DNA of 64,000 nt from Leptolyngbya sp. NIES-3755. Its GTDB lineage: Bacteria > Cyanobacteriota > Cyanobacteriia > Leptolyngbyales > Leptolyngbyaceae. Every line of letters starts with the position of its first letter. Position 1 is the first letter of the stretch. The notes below the pieces were generated by a model, which was given only the letters and a program-made list of their open reading frames with translations, searched no databases and was not told the origin of the DNA. The translations under genes and the position numbers were made by a program. This document shows positions 1 to 23,509 of this stretch, in pieces. The stretch spans positions 4,969,030-5,033,029 of the forward strand of contig AP017308.1 in NCBI GenBank assembly GCA_001548435.1, in the 5' to 3' direction.

Positions 1-16
1 CAGATTGAGAAACGTT

Positions 17-1879
17 ATGGCACAAACACAACCCCGCAATAAAGTTGGCGAAGTCCGTCCTAGCCAAATCCTATTTTCGGCTGGTATCGGTTCTGTGATC
101 GATTTACCGAACCTTTCCGCGATGGTGATGGGACTCGATGACTGGGATATCAATCATGCGACTGAACTAGGCGAAGAACGGTTACTCGCAGCAGTAAAAC
201 GATCGCTCAGTCCAACGGTGAAACGCCTCTTGTCGCCGCCCATTCCGCCCGAATCTGATGGAATGCCAAGCTTCTTAGATGAAAGTCATCGGATCGGCAT
301 TCCCGTCTCTCCATTCCCGTCCTGGATGCTTTGTCCAAGTTGTCGGCTTTTAGCTCCGCTGCAATCTCGATTGTTTGAACTGAAAAGCGATCGCTATCGT
401 CCAGATCAAAACCGCTATGTTCATACGAATTGTCGAGGCAAGTATACACCAACCGCAATCCCCGCTCGATTTCTAGTCGCTTGCAAGCATGGACATCTCG
501 ATGATTTTCCGTGGCACTATTTTGTCCATCGTGGAACAGTCTGCAAAGACTACCGATTAAGACTCTACGAGTATGGCGTGTCTGGTTCTGCCGCTGATAT
601 TGAAGTGAAATGTGATACCTGTGGTGTCGCTCGGCGAATGTCCGATGCCTTTGGTGACTTGGGCAAAAAGAATATGCCACAGTGCCGTGGTCGCCATGTT
701 CATCTACGAAACTTCGATGAAGACGGTTGCAACCAACGAATGGTTGGAATTTTGCTAGGTGCTTCTAATAGTTGGTTTCCAATTACGCTTTCTGCCTTAT
801 CAATCCCCAGTGCAGTCGATCAGCTTGCACAACTCGTTGAGAAACATTGGACAGTTTTAGAAAAGGCAACTAGCCCAGAAATTCTCGCTGCTTTTCGATC
901 AATCGGACAACTCAAAGACTTTCCAAAGTACTCAGACGAAGAGCTTTGGGCGCAAATTCAGCAAAAGCGATCGACCTCGATCGAGGAAGAAGAAGCTAAG
1001 GATATTAAAACTCCAGAGTGGCAAGTTTTCTCAGCAGCAGATACAAGCCTCAACTCGTCGGACTTCTGGCTCACTCCAGTTGCTCCACCGACAGGCTATG
1101 AATCTTACTTTGACAAAGTTGTTTTAGTAGAACGATTGCGAGAAGTTCGGGCACTGGTCGGCTTTTCCCGAATTGAGTCTCCAGGCGATTTTGCCGAAAC
1201 TGGAGAACTACCCGAAGATTATTGGGCACCGCTAAGTCGTCAAGAGCCAAAATGGGTTCCAGCCACCGAAGTTCGAGGAGAAGGATTGTTCCTGCAATTC
1301 AGCGATCGGGCGATCGCACACTGGGAAAATCAACCTCAACTCACCGCATACAAGCAACAAAGTATTGAAGCGCATCGTCGTTGGCGAACGGCTCGATCGC
1401 TCAATCCAGATACGAACTATCCGGGTGTTCGATACATTTTGCTGCATTCTTTTGCTCATGCACTCATGCGCCAACTCGCGATCGAATGCGGTTACACGGC
1501 TGCCAGTCTGCGCGAACGCATTTACTCGAAGCTCCCAAATGAAGAGAACGGACCAATGGCAGGCATTCTGATTTACACAGCGGCTCCTGATAGTGAAGGT
1601 ACGTTAGGCGGTTTAGTTAGTTTGGGACAGCCTGCAATTCTCGGTCGTCATCTGGATCAAGCCTTAGAGCAAATGCGGCTATGTGCTTCTGATCCACTCT
1701 GCGCGGAACATAGCCCATTGCAATCTCCGAATACTTTACATTGGGCGGCGTGTCATGCCTGTCTCTTCAGTCCAGAGACTTCTTGTGAGCGGGGTAATAA
1801 ATACCTCGATCGTACTTTGCTCATTCCGACAGTAAAGACAGAGTTCGCTTCACTTGCCTTCTTCAAACCTGAGAGTTGA
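17..1879 (+). CDS. drmB: DrmB-like DUF1998 protein (DISARM component)
   Basis: About 620 residues. The N-terminus carries the VRPSQILFSAGIGSVIDLP pattern typical of DrmB, followed by Cys pairs (CPSC near residue 105, CKHGH and CDTCG further on), and a C-terminal DUF1998 region with a Cys cluster (HWAACHACLF, ETSCERG) near residue 580. DrmB is a core subunit of DISARM, a multi-gene anti-phage system, where it acts with the DrmA helicase. The ATG at 17 is chosen because the family motif starts shortly after it; an in-frame TTG lies at 5, and the frame stays open to the window edge, so the true start could lie outside. No drmC-type phospholipase follows; the next genes are on the other strand and unrelated. 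Family call is fairly firm; membership of a working DISARM is inference. Confidence 0.8.
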   Translation: MAQTQPRNKVGEVRPSQILFSAGIGSVIDLPNLSAMVMGLDDWDINHATELGEERLLAAVKRSLSPTVKRLLSPPIPPESDGMPSFLDESHRIGIPVSPFPSWMLCPSCRLLAPLQSRLFELKSDRYRPDQNRYVHTNCRGKYTPTAIPARFLVACKHGHLDDFPWHYFVHRGTVCKDYRLRLYEYGVSGSAADIEVKCDTCGVARRMSDAFGDLGKKNMPQCRGRHVHLRNFDEDGCNQRMVGILLGASNSWFPITLSALSIPSAVDQLAQLVEKHWTVLEKATSPEILAAFRSIGQLKDFPKYSDEELWAQIQQKRSTSIEEEEAKDIKTPEWQVFSAADTSLNSSDFWLTPVAPPTGYESYFDKVVLVERLREVRALVGFSRIESPGDFAETGELPEDYWAPLSRQEPKWVPATEVRGEGLFLQFSDRAIAHWENQPQLTAYKQQSIEAHRRWRTARSLNPDTNYPGVRYILLHSFAHALMRQLAIECGYTAASLRERIYSKLPNEENGPMAGILIYTAAPDSEGTLGGLVSLGQPAILGRHLDQALEQMRLCASDPLCAEHSPLQSPNTLHWAACHACLFSPETSCERGNKYLDRTLLIPTVKTEFASLAFFKPES

Positions 1880-1957
1880 TTAGCGAGAATCTACGATCGC
1901 AAAGAATTGCTTTGCCCACAGTACATTATCCATCGAGAAACTAGCTCTTAGAAAGGT

Positions 1958-2479
1958 CTAAATCGGCACATTAAATGCCTTGGAAACCAGAATCGGATTG
2001 AAGTATTCGGTGTATTCCTTGATCAGTCCATTTTCAAACCGAAAGATACCAACATAGTCATTTTGATACCGCCCTCCTGCTCGGATCTCGATGTCACCCT
2101 TGAATTGAACAAACAGCACATTGGGATTCTCAGTCGGATAAATGGTGCGAGGAAACGACATTTTGCTGAACAGCTTTGGAAGTGAACTGTACTGCTTATA
2201 GATTCCTTCGCGTCCATCAAAGCTTCTGGGAAAGTCTCCGAAAGCATACGGCATGATCTGTCGAGCATCTTCCGCAAAGATTTCGCGCAATACTTCAAAC
2301 TTCCCAGTCTCTAAAGCAACAAAGTACGCTTCTACACTGTCTCGATTCGTTCTCCGAGGCGCGGGAGCAGCAGTCGCGATCGATTGCAATTTAGCAAACC
2401 CCGCTGTTGCTCCAAATCCAAACAATCCCAATCCACCTTTGATCGTCGATCGTCGATCGGACCACATCTTTCTACTCAT
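1958..2479 (-). CDS. SnoaL/NTF2-like protein with Tat-like signal
   Basis: 173 residues. The N-terminus has a twin-arginine-like stretch (SDRRSTIKGG) followed by a hydrophobic Gly/Ala/Phe segment and an Ala-rich cleavage region, so export by the Tat route is likely. The rest matches the SnoaL/NTF2 cone fold: an N-terminal helix (SVEAYFVALETGKFEVL), then EDARQIMP, and a C-terminal sheet ending in KEYTEYFNP. Such folds bind small hydrophobic ligands or act as isomerases or hydrolases; no substrate can be named. It lies 4 bp downstream of the alpha/beta hydrolase gene on the same strand, so the two are almost certainly co-transcribed and probably act on related compounds outside the cytoplasm. 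Confidence 0.75.
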   Translation of the reverse strand: MSRKMWSDRRSTIKGGLGLFGFGATAGFAKLQSIATAAPAPRRTNRDSVEAYFVALETGKFEVLREIFAEDARQIMPYAFGDFPRSFDGREGIYKQYSSLPKLFSKMSFPRTIYPTENPNVLFVQFKGDIEIRAGGRYQNDYVGIFRFENGLIKEYTEYFNPILVSKAFNVPI

Positions 2480-3614: not shown

Positions 3615-3797
3615 GACTCGTCTTAGGAGTTGAACAATGAGAAACAGGTGAGTCGCAACCTAACTTATTTTAGGTAAACGATTTTGTCAAGAATTAAATT
3701 TGAATTGCGTCTTTCACCTCATTTCCAGACAAGAAACGCCGAACTGATGATCTCACTTCGGCGACTTGATAGATTGATGGAAAATGGTGGATGGAAT

Positions 3798-4583
3798 TTA
3801 GGGATCGCTCTGTAACACTTGGGGATGTAGCAATCCGACCATTTGCTGGATGCCGCGATGAATGCGACGAGTGACGGTCATTGGGCTGACTCCGATCTGT
3901 TCAGCGACTTCCTTGCGAGACAGATCATGCAGGAAGACGTATTCGATCGCTTGTCTCGTTTTGTCTTCAAGCTGGTTGAGTGCCCGTTGCAGTTGCTGAC
4001 GATCTTCTTCTAGCACTTGTAGGGCTTGGTAGCGGGCATCGGGAAGCGTATCGCCTAATGTCATGGGCGAATCTAATTGCTGGCAAACGGTCGCATCCAA
4101 GCTCAACGGGAGACGGTTCTTCGCTGCGAGTTTGCTTTCGCGCCATTCGTTGACGGAGACTTTCAGCACATCTGCAATCTCTTCATCGCTGGGTTGGCGA
4201 CCGAAGGCTTCCATCAGCTGTTCGCGGACTCGTTGTCCTTCTTTGTTTAATTGCTGCCAGCGACGGGGAATTTTGACGGTTCCAGCACGATCGCGTAAGA
4301 AGTGGAGCATTTCGCCTCGGATATAAGGCACAGCGAACGAACTAAAAGCGCAACCTTGATTGGGGTTGAACCGTTCGATCGCACGAATCAGTCCGAGATA
4401 TCCGATTTGTTCAAGATCTTCATAAGGTTCTGCACATTGATGACTCACCCGGTGGGCGATTTTACGAACCAAGCCAGCATTCATTTGTACCAATTGATTG
4501 CGGAGTCTCACCGAAGGGTTTTGGTGATACGAAACTAGAAGTTCCATCCCGCGAGAGCGTAAAGAAGATTGAGTTGCCATCAT
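3798..4583 (-). CDS. sigF: Group 3 RNA polymerase sigma factor, SigF type
   Basis: 261 residues, sigma-70 family. Region 2 is recognisable from EDLEQIGYLGLIRAIERF and the SSFAVPYIRGEMLHFLRD segment (about residues 30-100), region 3 from PRRWQQLNKEGQRVREQL and EEIADVLKVSV (about 110-175), and region 4 from the helix-turn-helix RKEVAEQIGVSPMTVTRRIHRG (about 215-245). The pattern is that of cyanobacterial SigF, which is linked to pilus/motility and stress genes in Synechocystis. Two consecutive ATG codons (4583 and 4580) both fit as start. No anti-sigma factor gene is adjacent. It is transcribed divergently from the acidic protein gene, with a shared 311-bp regulatory region. Confidence 0.9.
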   Translation of the reverse strand: MMATQSSLRSRGMELLVSYHQNPSVRLRNQLVQMNAGLVRKIAHRVSHQCAEPYEDLEQIGYLGLIRAIERFNPNQGCAFSSFAVPYIRGEMLHFLRDRAGTVKIPRRWQQLNKEGQRVREQLMEAFGRQPSDEEIADVLKVSVNEWRESKLAAKNRLPLSLDATVCQQLDSPMTLGDTLPDARYQALQVLEEDRQQLQRALNQLEDKTRQAIEYVFLHDLSRKEVAEQIGVSPMTVTRRIHRGIQQMVGLLHPQVLQSDP

Positions 4584-22198: not shown

Positions 22199-23509
22199 TT
22201 GAAACCGTTGGAATATTATCAGCCGACTCTTCCTAATTTATCGATCGAACAACTGCCCCCCCGTCGTCATCGTCGCAGTTCTGATCTCAATCATATTCGT
22301 GTTCACGATCGCGCCTGTCACGATTGGTATCGCTTTGTGCTGTCGTTTCCACCTCATCTGGTGCAGAAGTATTTGACGGATTTTGGCATGGGTTCTGATC
22401 AGCGGGTTCTCGATCCTTTTTGTGGCACTGGAACGACCGTTGTAGAGTGTAAAAAACAAGGCGTTCCAAGTGTTGGAGTTGAAGCGAATCAAATGGCTTG
22501 GTTTGCAGGGACAACGAAATTAGATTGGTCGATCGATCAAAATCGCTTACTCGATCACGCTACGAAAATCGCAGAATTGGCTCACGCGAATCTCGATCGA
22601 CCACTCCAAACATTATCAGAAGAACAAACACAGTTATTACTGAAGAATTCGATTAGCGAATTGCCTCTACATAAGGCATTGATTCTATTAGAGCAATTAG
22701 AAAAACATAAAGATGAACATTGCGATCGACATGAAAGACTCGCATTAGCTAAAATTCTTGTTTATTCCATCAGCAATCTAAAATTTGCACCAGAAGTGAG
22801 TATCGGAAAACCGAAACAAGATGCTCCGGTGATCGAACTTTGGTTAGATGAAATTCGACAAATTGCTACTGATTTAGAGTATTTGAAATCGCTGAAAGAT
22901 ACGCCAGCAATGATTCATCACGCGGACTCTCGCAGTTTGTTGAAAGTTTTGGAACCGAACTCGATCGATGCGGTCATTACTTCGCCACCGTATCCGAATG
23001 AGAAAGATTACACTCGCACAACTCGATTAGAGTCGGTCTTGCTTGGATTCTTGAAAACGAAGGCTGATTTAAGGACATTGAAACAGGGATTAATGCGATC
23101 GAACTCTCGGTGCGTTTATCGATCGGACAATGACGATCAGTGGGTGGCAAATCATCCAGAGATTCAACGAATTGCGAACGAGATTGAAGCCAAGCGAATT
23201 GAATTGAAAAAAACGAGTGGATTCGAGCGGCAATATGCACGAGCGACAAAACTCTATTTCGGTGGGATGGCGAAACACTTAGCTGATTTGCGCCAAGCTT
23301 TAAGACCGAATGCACAGTTGGCTTACGTGGTGGGAGATCAGGCTTCTTATTTGCGCGTCATGATTCGGACAGGAGAACTCATCGCAGACTTGGCGAAATC
23401 ACTCGGTTACGAAGTCACTGATATCGAGCTTTTCCGAACGCGATTGGCGACCGCGACTAAAGAGCAATTGCGCGAAGAAGTTGTTCTACTGAAGTGGAAA
23501 GGGAACTAG
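22199..23509 (+). CDS. Site-specific DNA methyltransferase, solitary
   Basis: 436 residues from a TTG start; no in-frame ATG fits better. Motif I (SAM binding) is LDPFCGTGTT at residues 71-80; the catalytic motif IV is SPPYPNEKDY at 262-271. SPPY is the form common to N4-cytosine and some N6-adenine enzymes. The region between is long and probably holds extra recognition elements. No restriction endonuclease gene is adjacent: SufE lies upstream and a small membrane protein overlaps the 3' end. It is therefore a solitary methylase, possibly a regulator or HIP1-related enzyme; target sequence unknown. Confidence 0.88.
   Translation: MKPLEYYQPTLPNLSIEQLPPRRHRRSSDLNHIRVHDRACHDWYRFVLSFPPHLVQKYLTDFGMGSDQRVLDPFCGTGTTVVECKKQGVPSVGVEANQMAWFAGTTKLDWSIDQNRLLDHATKIAELAHANLDRPLQTLSEEQTQLLLKNSISELPLHKALILLEQLEKHKDEHCDRHERLALAKILVYSISNLKFAPEVSIGKPKQDAPVIELWLDEIRQIATDLEYLKSLKDTPAMIHHADSRSLLKVLEPNSIDAVITSPPYPNEKDYTRTTRLESVLLGFLKTKADLRTLKQGLMRSNSRCVYRSDNDDQWVANHPEIQRIANEIEAKRIELKKTSGFERQYARATKLYFGGMAKHLADLRQALRPNAQLAYVVGDQASYLRVMIRTGELIADLAKSLGYEVTDIELFRTRLATATKEQLREEVVLLKWKGN

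Follow-up and report, generated by a model that had tools for sequence, protein, structure and literature searches.

A class 1 DISARM operon with a RelE-UvrD gene and two young insertion sequences in Leptolyngbya sp. NIES-3755

The drmB gene found at the left edge of a 64,000-nucleotide stretch of the genome of Leptolyngbya sp. NIES-3755 (the whole stretch is referred to below as the window) belongs to a class 1 DISARM operon. This operon has probably been crippled by two young insertion sequence (IS) hits, and in its intact relatives a RelE-UvrD protein probably acts as an effector composed of a motor and an RNase head. Once the window is extended, the finding at its edge is ordinary (the DrmB of a DISARM operon); what is new is the RelE-UvrD variant around it.

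Results and Discussion

Gene content of the operon

The window corresponds to C1:4969030-5033029 of the source genome G000 (6.76 Mb in four contigs, rated 99.99% complete), and the leftward reading covered C1:4930001-4973030. Window numbering is used throughout, negative values lying to the left of the window (L003 coordinate minus 20029, or L004 coordinate minus 9999). The following features were identified:

-17344 to -14198, + strand: drmD, 1048 aa (NCBIfam DISARM_DrmD, 1382.8 bits, cut-off 610)
-14161 to -13670, + strand: gene of 163 aa without a family (open frame)
-13666 to -13633, + strand: first 11 codons of drmMI, the 5' piece before IS copy 1
-13632 to -12372, - strand: IS copy 1, interrupting drmMI at codon 12
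-12413 to -8253, + strand: remainder of drmMI, its ATG inside the IS (PADLOC DrmMI, 1826 bits; Pfam Eco57I)
-8217 to -7978, + strand: VapB-like gene, named by its position ahead of the PIN gene
-7978 to -7577, + strand: VapC-like PIN gene (Pfam PIN, 62.5 bits; the start is a chosen one)
-7267 to -5183, + strand: RelE-UvrD gene, 694 aa (UvrD and GajB motor models)
-5186 to -4868, + strand: first 106 codons of drmA, the 5' piece before IS copy 2
-4867 to -3607, - strand: IS copy 2, interrupting drmA at codon 107
-3648 to 8, + strand: remainder of drmA, its ATG inside the IS (DISARM_DrmAS, 1469.6 bits)
1 to 8, + strand: last bases of drmA, an SF2/YprA-like helicase gene (stop codon at 6-8; matches to DISARM_DrmAS and to solved DrmA)
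17 to 1879, + strand: drmB, 620 aa (NCBIfam, PADLOC and Pfam matches)
1880 to 1957, no strand: 3' junction of drmB, the site of drmC in most near relatives inspected, here without drmC

The sequence-only reading had taken the first gene for a DISARM DrmB whose frame runs from the window boundary. The identification was borne out: the protein matches NCBIfam DrmB_fam NF038324 over the entire profile (1-604 of 604; 711.8 bits against a cut-off of 240, E 8e-214), the PADLOC DrmB model (271 bits) and the Pfam domain MZB (MrfA zinc-binding domain; 45 bits against a cut-off of 24.2). The claim about the frame was wrong, since the gene is complete, with an ATG at 17, directly behind the drmA stop codon, and 620 codons free of internal stops. 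One DrmB gene was found in the source genome. The remainder of DrmA likewise covers the whole of NCBIfam DISARM_DrmAS NF038325 (profile 1-1165 of 1165; 1469.6 bits against a cut-off of 950) and matches the solved DrmA 7s9v_A with 1162 bits; the helicase and methylase motifs of the operon proteins look intact by eye.

The partner genes expected to the left were thus found there, with DrmA, DrmMI and DrmD encoded in the same operon, and neither of the outcomes named beforehand as contrary to a DISARM assignment (no helicase or methylase gene upstream, or membership of an unrelated DUF1998 family) was observed. The other arrangement that had been considered, a solitary DrmB, had nothing in its favour beyond the position of the gene at the window edge; it is refuted by the drmA, drmMI and drmD genes that stand upstream (1,469.6, 1,826 and 1,382.8 bits, respectively), and we attach practically no probability to it. 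With these genes in one operon, DrmA, a separate DrmB (DUF1998/MZB), the adenine methylase DrmMI and the helicase DrmD are all present, and on the strength of its sequence matches the operon (drmD, small gene, drmMI, vapBC-like genes, relE-uvrD, drmA, drmB) is assigned to class 1 DISARM. In class 2 DISARM, drmE and drmMII take the place of drmD and drmMI. The methyltransferase gene at 22.2 kb, which had been judged too distant to be a partner of DrmB, does lie outside the operon; this DNA methyltransferase-like frame (window 22199-23509, 436 aa) shows the motifs DPFCGTGTT and SPPY by eye.

The small gene between drmD and drmMI (L003:5868-6359) encodes a conserved protein of about 160 aa for which no family was found. 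Its counterpart in L046 (5159-5686) is adjoined by an extra gene that looks nuclease-like (EEP, by eye). A structure model of the DrmA N-terminal domain had a pLDDT of 65, and its best PDB match an E value of 0.46; an EVE-like domain is reported for class 1 DrmA in the accessible part of PMC12458937.

Analysis of the surroundings revealed no tRNA beside the operon in L002-L004, and no chromosomal site cleanly devoid of the operon: G003 and G004 carry the gene of the right flank but have no match to the left flank. The area to the left is rich in mobile elements, with a transposase-like gene in two frames (L002:7550-8627) and a TnpB-like gene (L002:8888-10207; both by eye). An AbiU-like gene (L002:5117-6889; PADLOC 606 bits) lies about 32-34 kb left of the window, i.e. 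about 15 kb left of drmD.

Absence of drmC

As noted from the sequence alone, drmB is not directly followed by drmC: the next gene (window 1958-2479) is an unrelated one on the opposite strand. The PADLOC DrmC model gave 0 matches anywhere in G000, and a protein search, run without a positive control, also found none, while the PADLOC model matched a gene adjoining drmB in each of six control relatives, which had been picked for a visible drmC-like gene. By eye, a drmC-like gene follows drmB in 11 of the 12 near loci (it is absent in L053). Among the matches listed, DrmC is present in 22 of the 29 RelE-UvrD DISARM loci in which drmB is followed by enough sequence to show it, and lacking in L081, L088, L089, L104, L114, L143 and L147. 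The source operon therefore lacks the PLD nuclease DrmC, which is typical of class 1 and described as dispensable. The absence of drmC is real but not rare, considering these seven loci and the statement in the accessible part of PMC9142583 that DrmC is dispensable and often missing. How DISARM halts phage without needing DrmC is posed there as an open question.

Insertion sequences within the operon

The two IS copies in the operon are identical, 1,261 bp in length and antisense to the operon, and each is bordered by its own 4-bp target duplication (TTAT in one case, TTAG in the other). The open frames of drmMI and drmA share their first 38 residues, each having its start within a copy of this IS. 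Joining the flanks of the drmMI insertion yields MSTARHHAEWLSLVEASGPF..., which is identical in L043 and L046 and differs by one residue in L053 and L054; joining those of the drmA insertion gives back a continuous DrmA N-terminus like that of L077 and L086. In near relatives the N-terminal 106 residues of DrmA and the rest of the protein form one frame.

The transposase of this IS matches Pfam DDE_Tnp_1. With IS4- and IS701-type elements it shares the DDE transposase and the 4-bp duplication, but it scores under every listed NCBIfam transposase cut-off (IS4_1, 64.6 bits against 115; IS701, 61.4 bits against 150). Nine copies with 100% identity were detected in the genome (eight complete, one truncated at the end of a contig), which argues for a recent burst. 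Several of the seven copies outside the operon (L005, L008-L013) seem by eye to lie inside other genes, and one of the seven runs into the end of contig C4. The chance that at least two of nine copies fall in a given 14 kb is 1.5e-4 under uniform insertion, and 1.7e-3 when insertions are assumed to be tolerated in only 30% of the genome; for this calculation the operon locus was chosen independently of IS content.

It is very improbable that the interruptions are an artefact of assembly. The nine identical copies, one of them at a contig end, are of the kind that could mislead assembly, but each copy in the operon has its own target duplication, the joined flanks restore the reading frame of the relatives, and the genome is in only 4 contigs at the completeness given above.

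Since the insertions separate the 5' ends of two core genes from their own start codons and detach the N-terminal domain of DrmA, we judge from the sequence that the DISARM operon has recently been crippled, short of being proven dead, and that at present it would be impaired. No other breaks were seen in the interrupted frames, and every later frame is still open, presumably owing to the young age of the IS hits. The double hit is read as loss of the operon under weak or negative selection and would represent a recent example of the breakdown of a defence operon.

An unlikely alternative is that the operon still works, the ATG carried by the IS restarting translation of DrmMI and DrmA, and DrmA functioning in split form, as an N-terminal peptide of 113 aa plus the core. 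This ATG stands 14 codons before the IS end, and both interrupted frames reopen there (MPLATPIETGARSE...) and continue into the gene. DrmMI loses only 11 residues, the remainder of DrmA still spans the entire DISARM_DrmAS model, the break in drmA falls in a poorly conserved linker, and four of the nine IS copies are placed so that this read-out frame leads into an open frame. This last excess is, however, weak (p 0.048 against 1/6), and the read-out is not tied to function. Moreover, no promoter-like site was found on the + strand at the exit of IS copy 2 (identical to copy 1), in the scan of which promoter-like and terminator-like counts were within chance, and a double hit within a single operon is consistent with relaxed or negative selection. 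We thus retain the crippled operon as the preferred reading.

The motor and head of RelE-UvrD

The motor of the RelE-UvrD protein matches UvrD and GajB models. It shares a UvrD-like motor with GajB of Gabija (PADLOC 72 bits), but it differs from Gabija in bearing a RelE head and in that no GajA was seen among the neighbours scanned. In Pfam, the head gave matches to Gp49 (E 0.0075) and ParE (E 0.029), both weak and under the cut-offs; it was therefore modelled from the close homologue L083, whose head is 78% identical to that of the source genome (26 sequences, pLDDT 83.9). The best solved fold match of this model was aRelE 1wmi_A (Foldseek E 5e-6), and the head profile matched aRelE 1wmi with E 5.3e-9.

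As a criterion for a RelE head we used residues L48, R58, R65 and R85 of aRelE, with the roles that we take them to have. All four are matched in the profile alignment: R58 is invariant, L49, R65 and R83 occur in at least 90% of the 26 heads, and all four are invariant in seven proteins, that of the source genome included. As judged from the model, the head is of the RelE fold. It thus has the fold and arginines of RelE/aRelE mRNA interferases, but differs from them in being fused to a UvrD motor, with no RelB-like gene recognised beside it.

Distribution of RelE-UvrD

A survey of 78 loci (of the 80 matches listed) revealed that in 37 of them (36 by rule, and L093 on inspection) RelE-UvrD lies upstream of drmA at a distance of no more than 2.5 kb; the rest of the listed loci comprise 14 upstream of an ArmC-like gene, 18 others and 9 cut by a contig end. 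The 37 listed drmA-linked loci belong to (i) Cyanobacteriota (21), (ii) Chloroflexota (11), (iii) Myxococcota (3), (iv) Acidobacteriota (1) and (v) Actinomycetota (1). RelE-UvrD genes of the Ktedonobacteria loci L097, L103, L106 and L111 had no DISARM or ARMADA partners that were recognised in view.

The gap between relE-uvrD and drmA is at most 500 bp in 33 of the 37 listed loci, i.e. at most 337 bp between aligned ends in all 21 listed cyanobacterial loci and above 500 bp in 4 of the 16 listed non-cyanobacterial ones. Among the matches listed (n=29 loci), distances of DrmA correlate with those of DrmB (r 0.969), the motor (r 0.916) and the head (r 0.789; permutation p 0.001 each). The motor distances that follow those of DrmA, together with the short gap to drmA, favour RelE-UvrD as a partner of DISARM, so far as sequence comparison can tell.

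An even draw of 386 cyanobacterial genomes contained 26 with DrmA over the family cut-off. Three of these loci (L159, L168, L177) have less than 300 bp of upstream DNA, and RelE-UvrD precedes drmA in two of the remaining 23 (L158 and the source genome, with the IS in between in the latter), in loci that reach back only 1.0-1.5 kb, so that a RelE-UvrD gene farther off would be missed. L182 is a further case, with DrmA below the cut-off. DISARM hence generally does without RelE-UvrD, and the RelE-UvrD DISARM is a minority variant. The gene occurs in 8 of the 12 nearer relatives (it is absent in L053-L056) and is absent in all six more distant loci.

RelE-UvrD may instead have no working part in DISARM and be just another passenger in the slot between drmMI and drmA. 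This is the less likely case in our view, but it draws on the rarity of the gene in the drawn cyanobacterial loci and on the fact that DISARM loci without RelE-UvrD also carry other DNA between drmMI and drmA (above 500 bp in 7 of 8 measured). It is opposed by (i) the closeness to drmA in the 33 listed loci, where the remaining slot content varies, (ii) the correlation of motor and DrmA distances among the matches listed, (iii) the short distance from drmMI to the start of RelE-UvrD, 500 bp or less in 8 of 12 listed loci outside Cyanobacteriota, and (iv) the essential role of a like protein in ARMADA according to the accessible part of PMC12458937. A partnership with DISARM remains the favoured reading.

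Comparison with ARMADA

The only published counterpart of RelE-UvrD that was found is ArmD of ARMADA; no description of it in DISARM was found in the literature searched, which is no proof of absence, and the accessible part of PMC12458937 names no RelE-UvrD-like protein in DISARM. According to the same part of that paper, the deletion of any gene of ARMADA type II, ArmD included, abolishes defence, as does mutation of the ArmD Walker A motif, while a Walker B mutation abolishes it only in part; no mutation of the ArmD RelE domain is reported there.

The locus shares with ARMADA type II (ArmA-D) an SNF2 helicase, a PglX-like methylase and the RelE-GajB-like helicase, ArmD (components after the accessible part of PMC12458937). 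It differs in that the YprA-like motor is split into DrmA and DrmB: there is no single-chain YprA helicase with a DUF1998 canopy and a C-terminal Vsr-type nuclease, and Pfam detected no nuclease domain in DrmA or DrmB. The ArmD-like gene, moreover, stands before the YprA gene, whereas in ARMADA it stands after it (PMC12458937, accessible part). As the locus lacks the ARMADA YprA architecture, it was filed as a RelE-UvrD variant of class 1 DISARM. With class 1 (drmD, drmMI, drmA, drmB, drmC) it shares core genes in the usual order, with DrmA, DrmB and DrmD over the NCBIfam cut-offs and a strong PADLOC DrmMI; unlike the standard system, it adds RelE-UvrD before drmA and vapBC-like slot genes, bears two IS interruptions and lacks drmC.

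In the cyanobacterial ARMADA-like loci L120, L123, L125, L131 and L132, a RelE-UvrD-like gene precedes a large YprA-type gene, as it does DrmA here; by domain, L120 and L125 have MZB in the same chain, and nuclease model matches below the cut-off. The order armA-armB-armD-armC in cyanobacteria, and the related protein before an ArmC-like gene in 14 of the 78 listed loci, might suggest a DISARM/ARMADA hybrid with RelE-UvrD captured from ARMADA, and the DISARM and ARMADA states need at least two changes on a quick, unrooted motor tree. We consider such a capture improbable. DISARM-linked motors fall in two places on this tree, and the protein of the source genome lies deep inside a DISARM-linked group; among the matches listed, only the Chloroflexota DISARM loci of the smaller group (L128, L133, L135, L138, L140) fall with most ARMADA proteins, and the unrooted tree leaves the direction open. 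The filing as a DISARM variant is accordingly kept.

Exchange of the RelE head

Among the matches listed, the motor of the source genome is nearest to that of L077 (82% identity), but the heads of the two are only 39% identical. Its head and linker are nearest to those of L083 and L080 (78% and 70-72%, respectively), the motors of which are 66-67% identical to its own. Forcing the head to group with the motor kin cost 253 log units (AU p 2.45e-5), and forcing the motor to group with the head kin cost 82 log units (AU p 1.3e-4), both p values being flattered because the groups were defined with the identities already known. At least three changes between A and B heads are required on the motor tree. 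From these comparisons the RelE head appears to have been exchanged between lineages independently of the motor; such turnover would be expected if a constant head were at a disadvantage against phage- or antitoxin-like inhibitors. In L080 and L083, the closest head relatives among the matches listed, there is only a distant DrmD match (25-26% identity) upstream of RelE-UvrD and DrmA, and other DNA may have taken the place of the operon's upstream half.

Putative role of RelE-UvrD

In intact relatives, DrmMI would mark host DNA and DrmAB would load on phage DNA with free 5' ends; such loading has reportedly been published for the DrmAB of Serratia. RelE-UvrD, whose motor diverges in step with DrmA, could run on the exposed single strand and carry along a RelE-type, ribosome-dependent RNase head, by which DNA recognition would be coupled to the stopping of translation. 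The protein may thus serve as an effector that complements or replaces DrmC. The function of the head as a ribosome-dependent mRNase is what we infer from sequence and model; the mechanism of ARMADA is called non-abortive in the accessible part of PMC12458937, which speaks against global translation arrest by a RelE head. Among the matches listed, a gene with a toxin-like head recurs beside drmA in five phyla, which makes its product a tangible candidate for the effector; the apparent head exchange supplies a ready-made comparison by which this could be tested.

The slot between drmMI and relE-uvrD

The distance from drmMI to relE-uvrD exceeds 500 bp in all 15 measurable listed cyanobacterial loci (1,071-9,369 bp, median 1,834, between aligned ends), and in 4 of the 12 listed loci outside Cyanobacteriota. 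Among listed cyanobacterial loci, gaps of this size were observed in 0 of 21 cases for relE-uvrD-drmA, 0 of 15 for drmB-drmC, 5 of 8 for drmD-drmMI and 2 of 17 for drmA-drmB. The slot of the source genome (985 bp) holds the vapBC-like pair; the contents of other slots are as follows:

L043 (= L077): PDC-M02A/B-like pair, the second matching only in its first 90 residues (by tool)
L045 (= L086): DarT/DarG with sacsin-like domains (by tool)
L048 (= L078): ResIII helicase (by tool)
L049 (= L092), and also L053, which is without RelE-UvrD: HIRAN (by tool)
L052: ThiF-JAB (by tool)
other loci: PIN with a small partner, RAYT-like, MazF-like and STAND-like (by eye; several frames nameless)

Some slot genes are common to related loci, and so the cases are not all independent. 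In L047 (= L109; L047:2-4072), the drmMI frame up to 1651 is followed by a vapBC-like pair, a second drmMI 3' fragment (3716-4072) and then relE-uvrD, as if a module had been inserted with partial duplication. The slot shows how other modules join a defence operon.

A broader interpretation, which we put forward tentatively and think doubtful, is that RelE-UvrD is a portable effector common to DISARM and ARMADA, in which the motor would stay with a YprA-type partner and the RNase head would be swapped, leading to local destruction of the messages translated at phage DNA; the cyanobacterial gap upstream would then be a standing docking place for toxin-antitoxin and defence modules, with DISARM as the chassis.

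Two further observations concern L043, from the same MAG as L077 (Leptolyngbya Prado105). Its drmMI lies in two overlapping frames (L043:4561-8744), reflecting a frameshift or a sequencing error. Its drmA and drmB form one open frame of 1961 aa with almost no linker (L043:13003-18885), which is either a natural DrmA-DrmB fusion or the result of a stop codon lost in the MAG.
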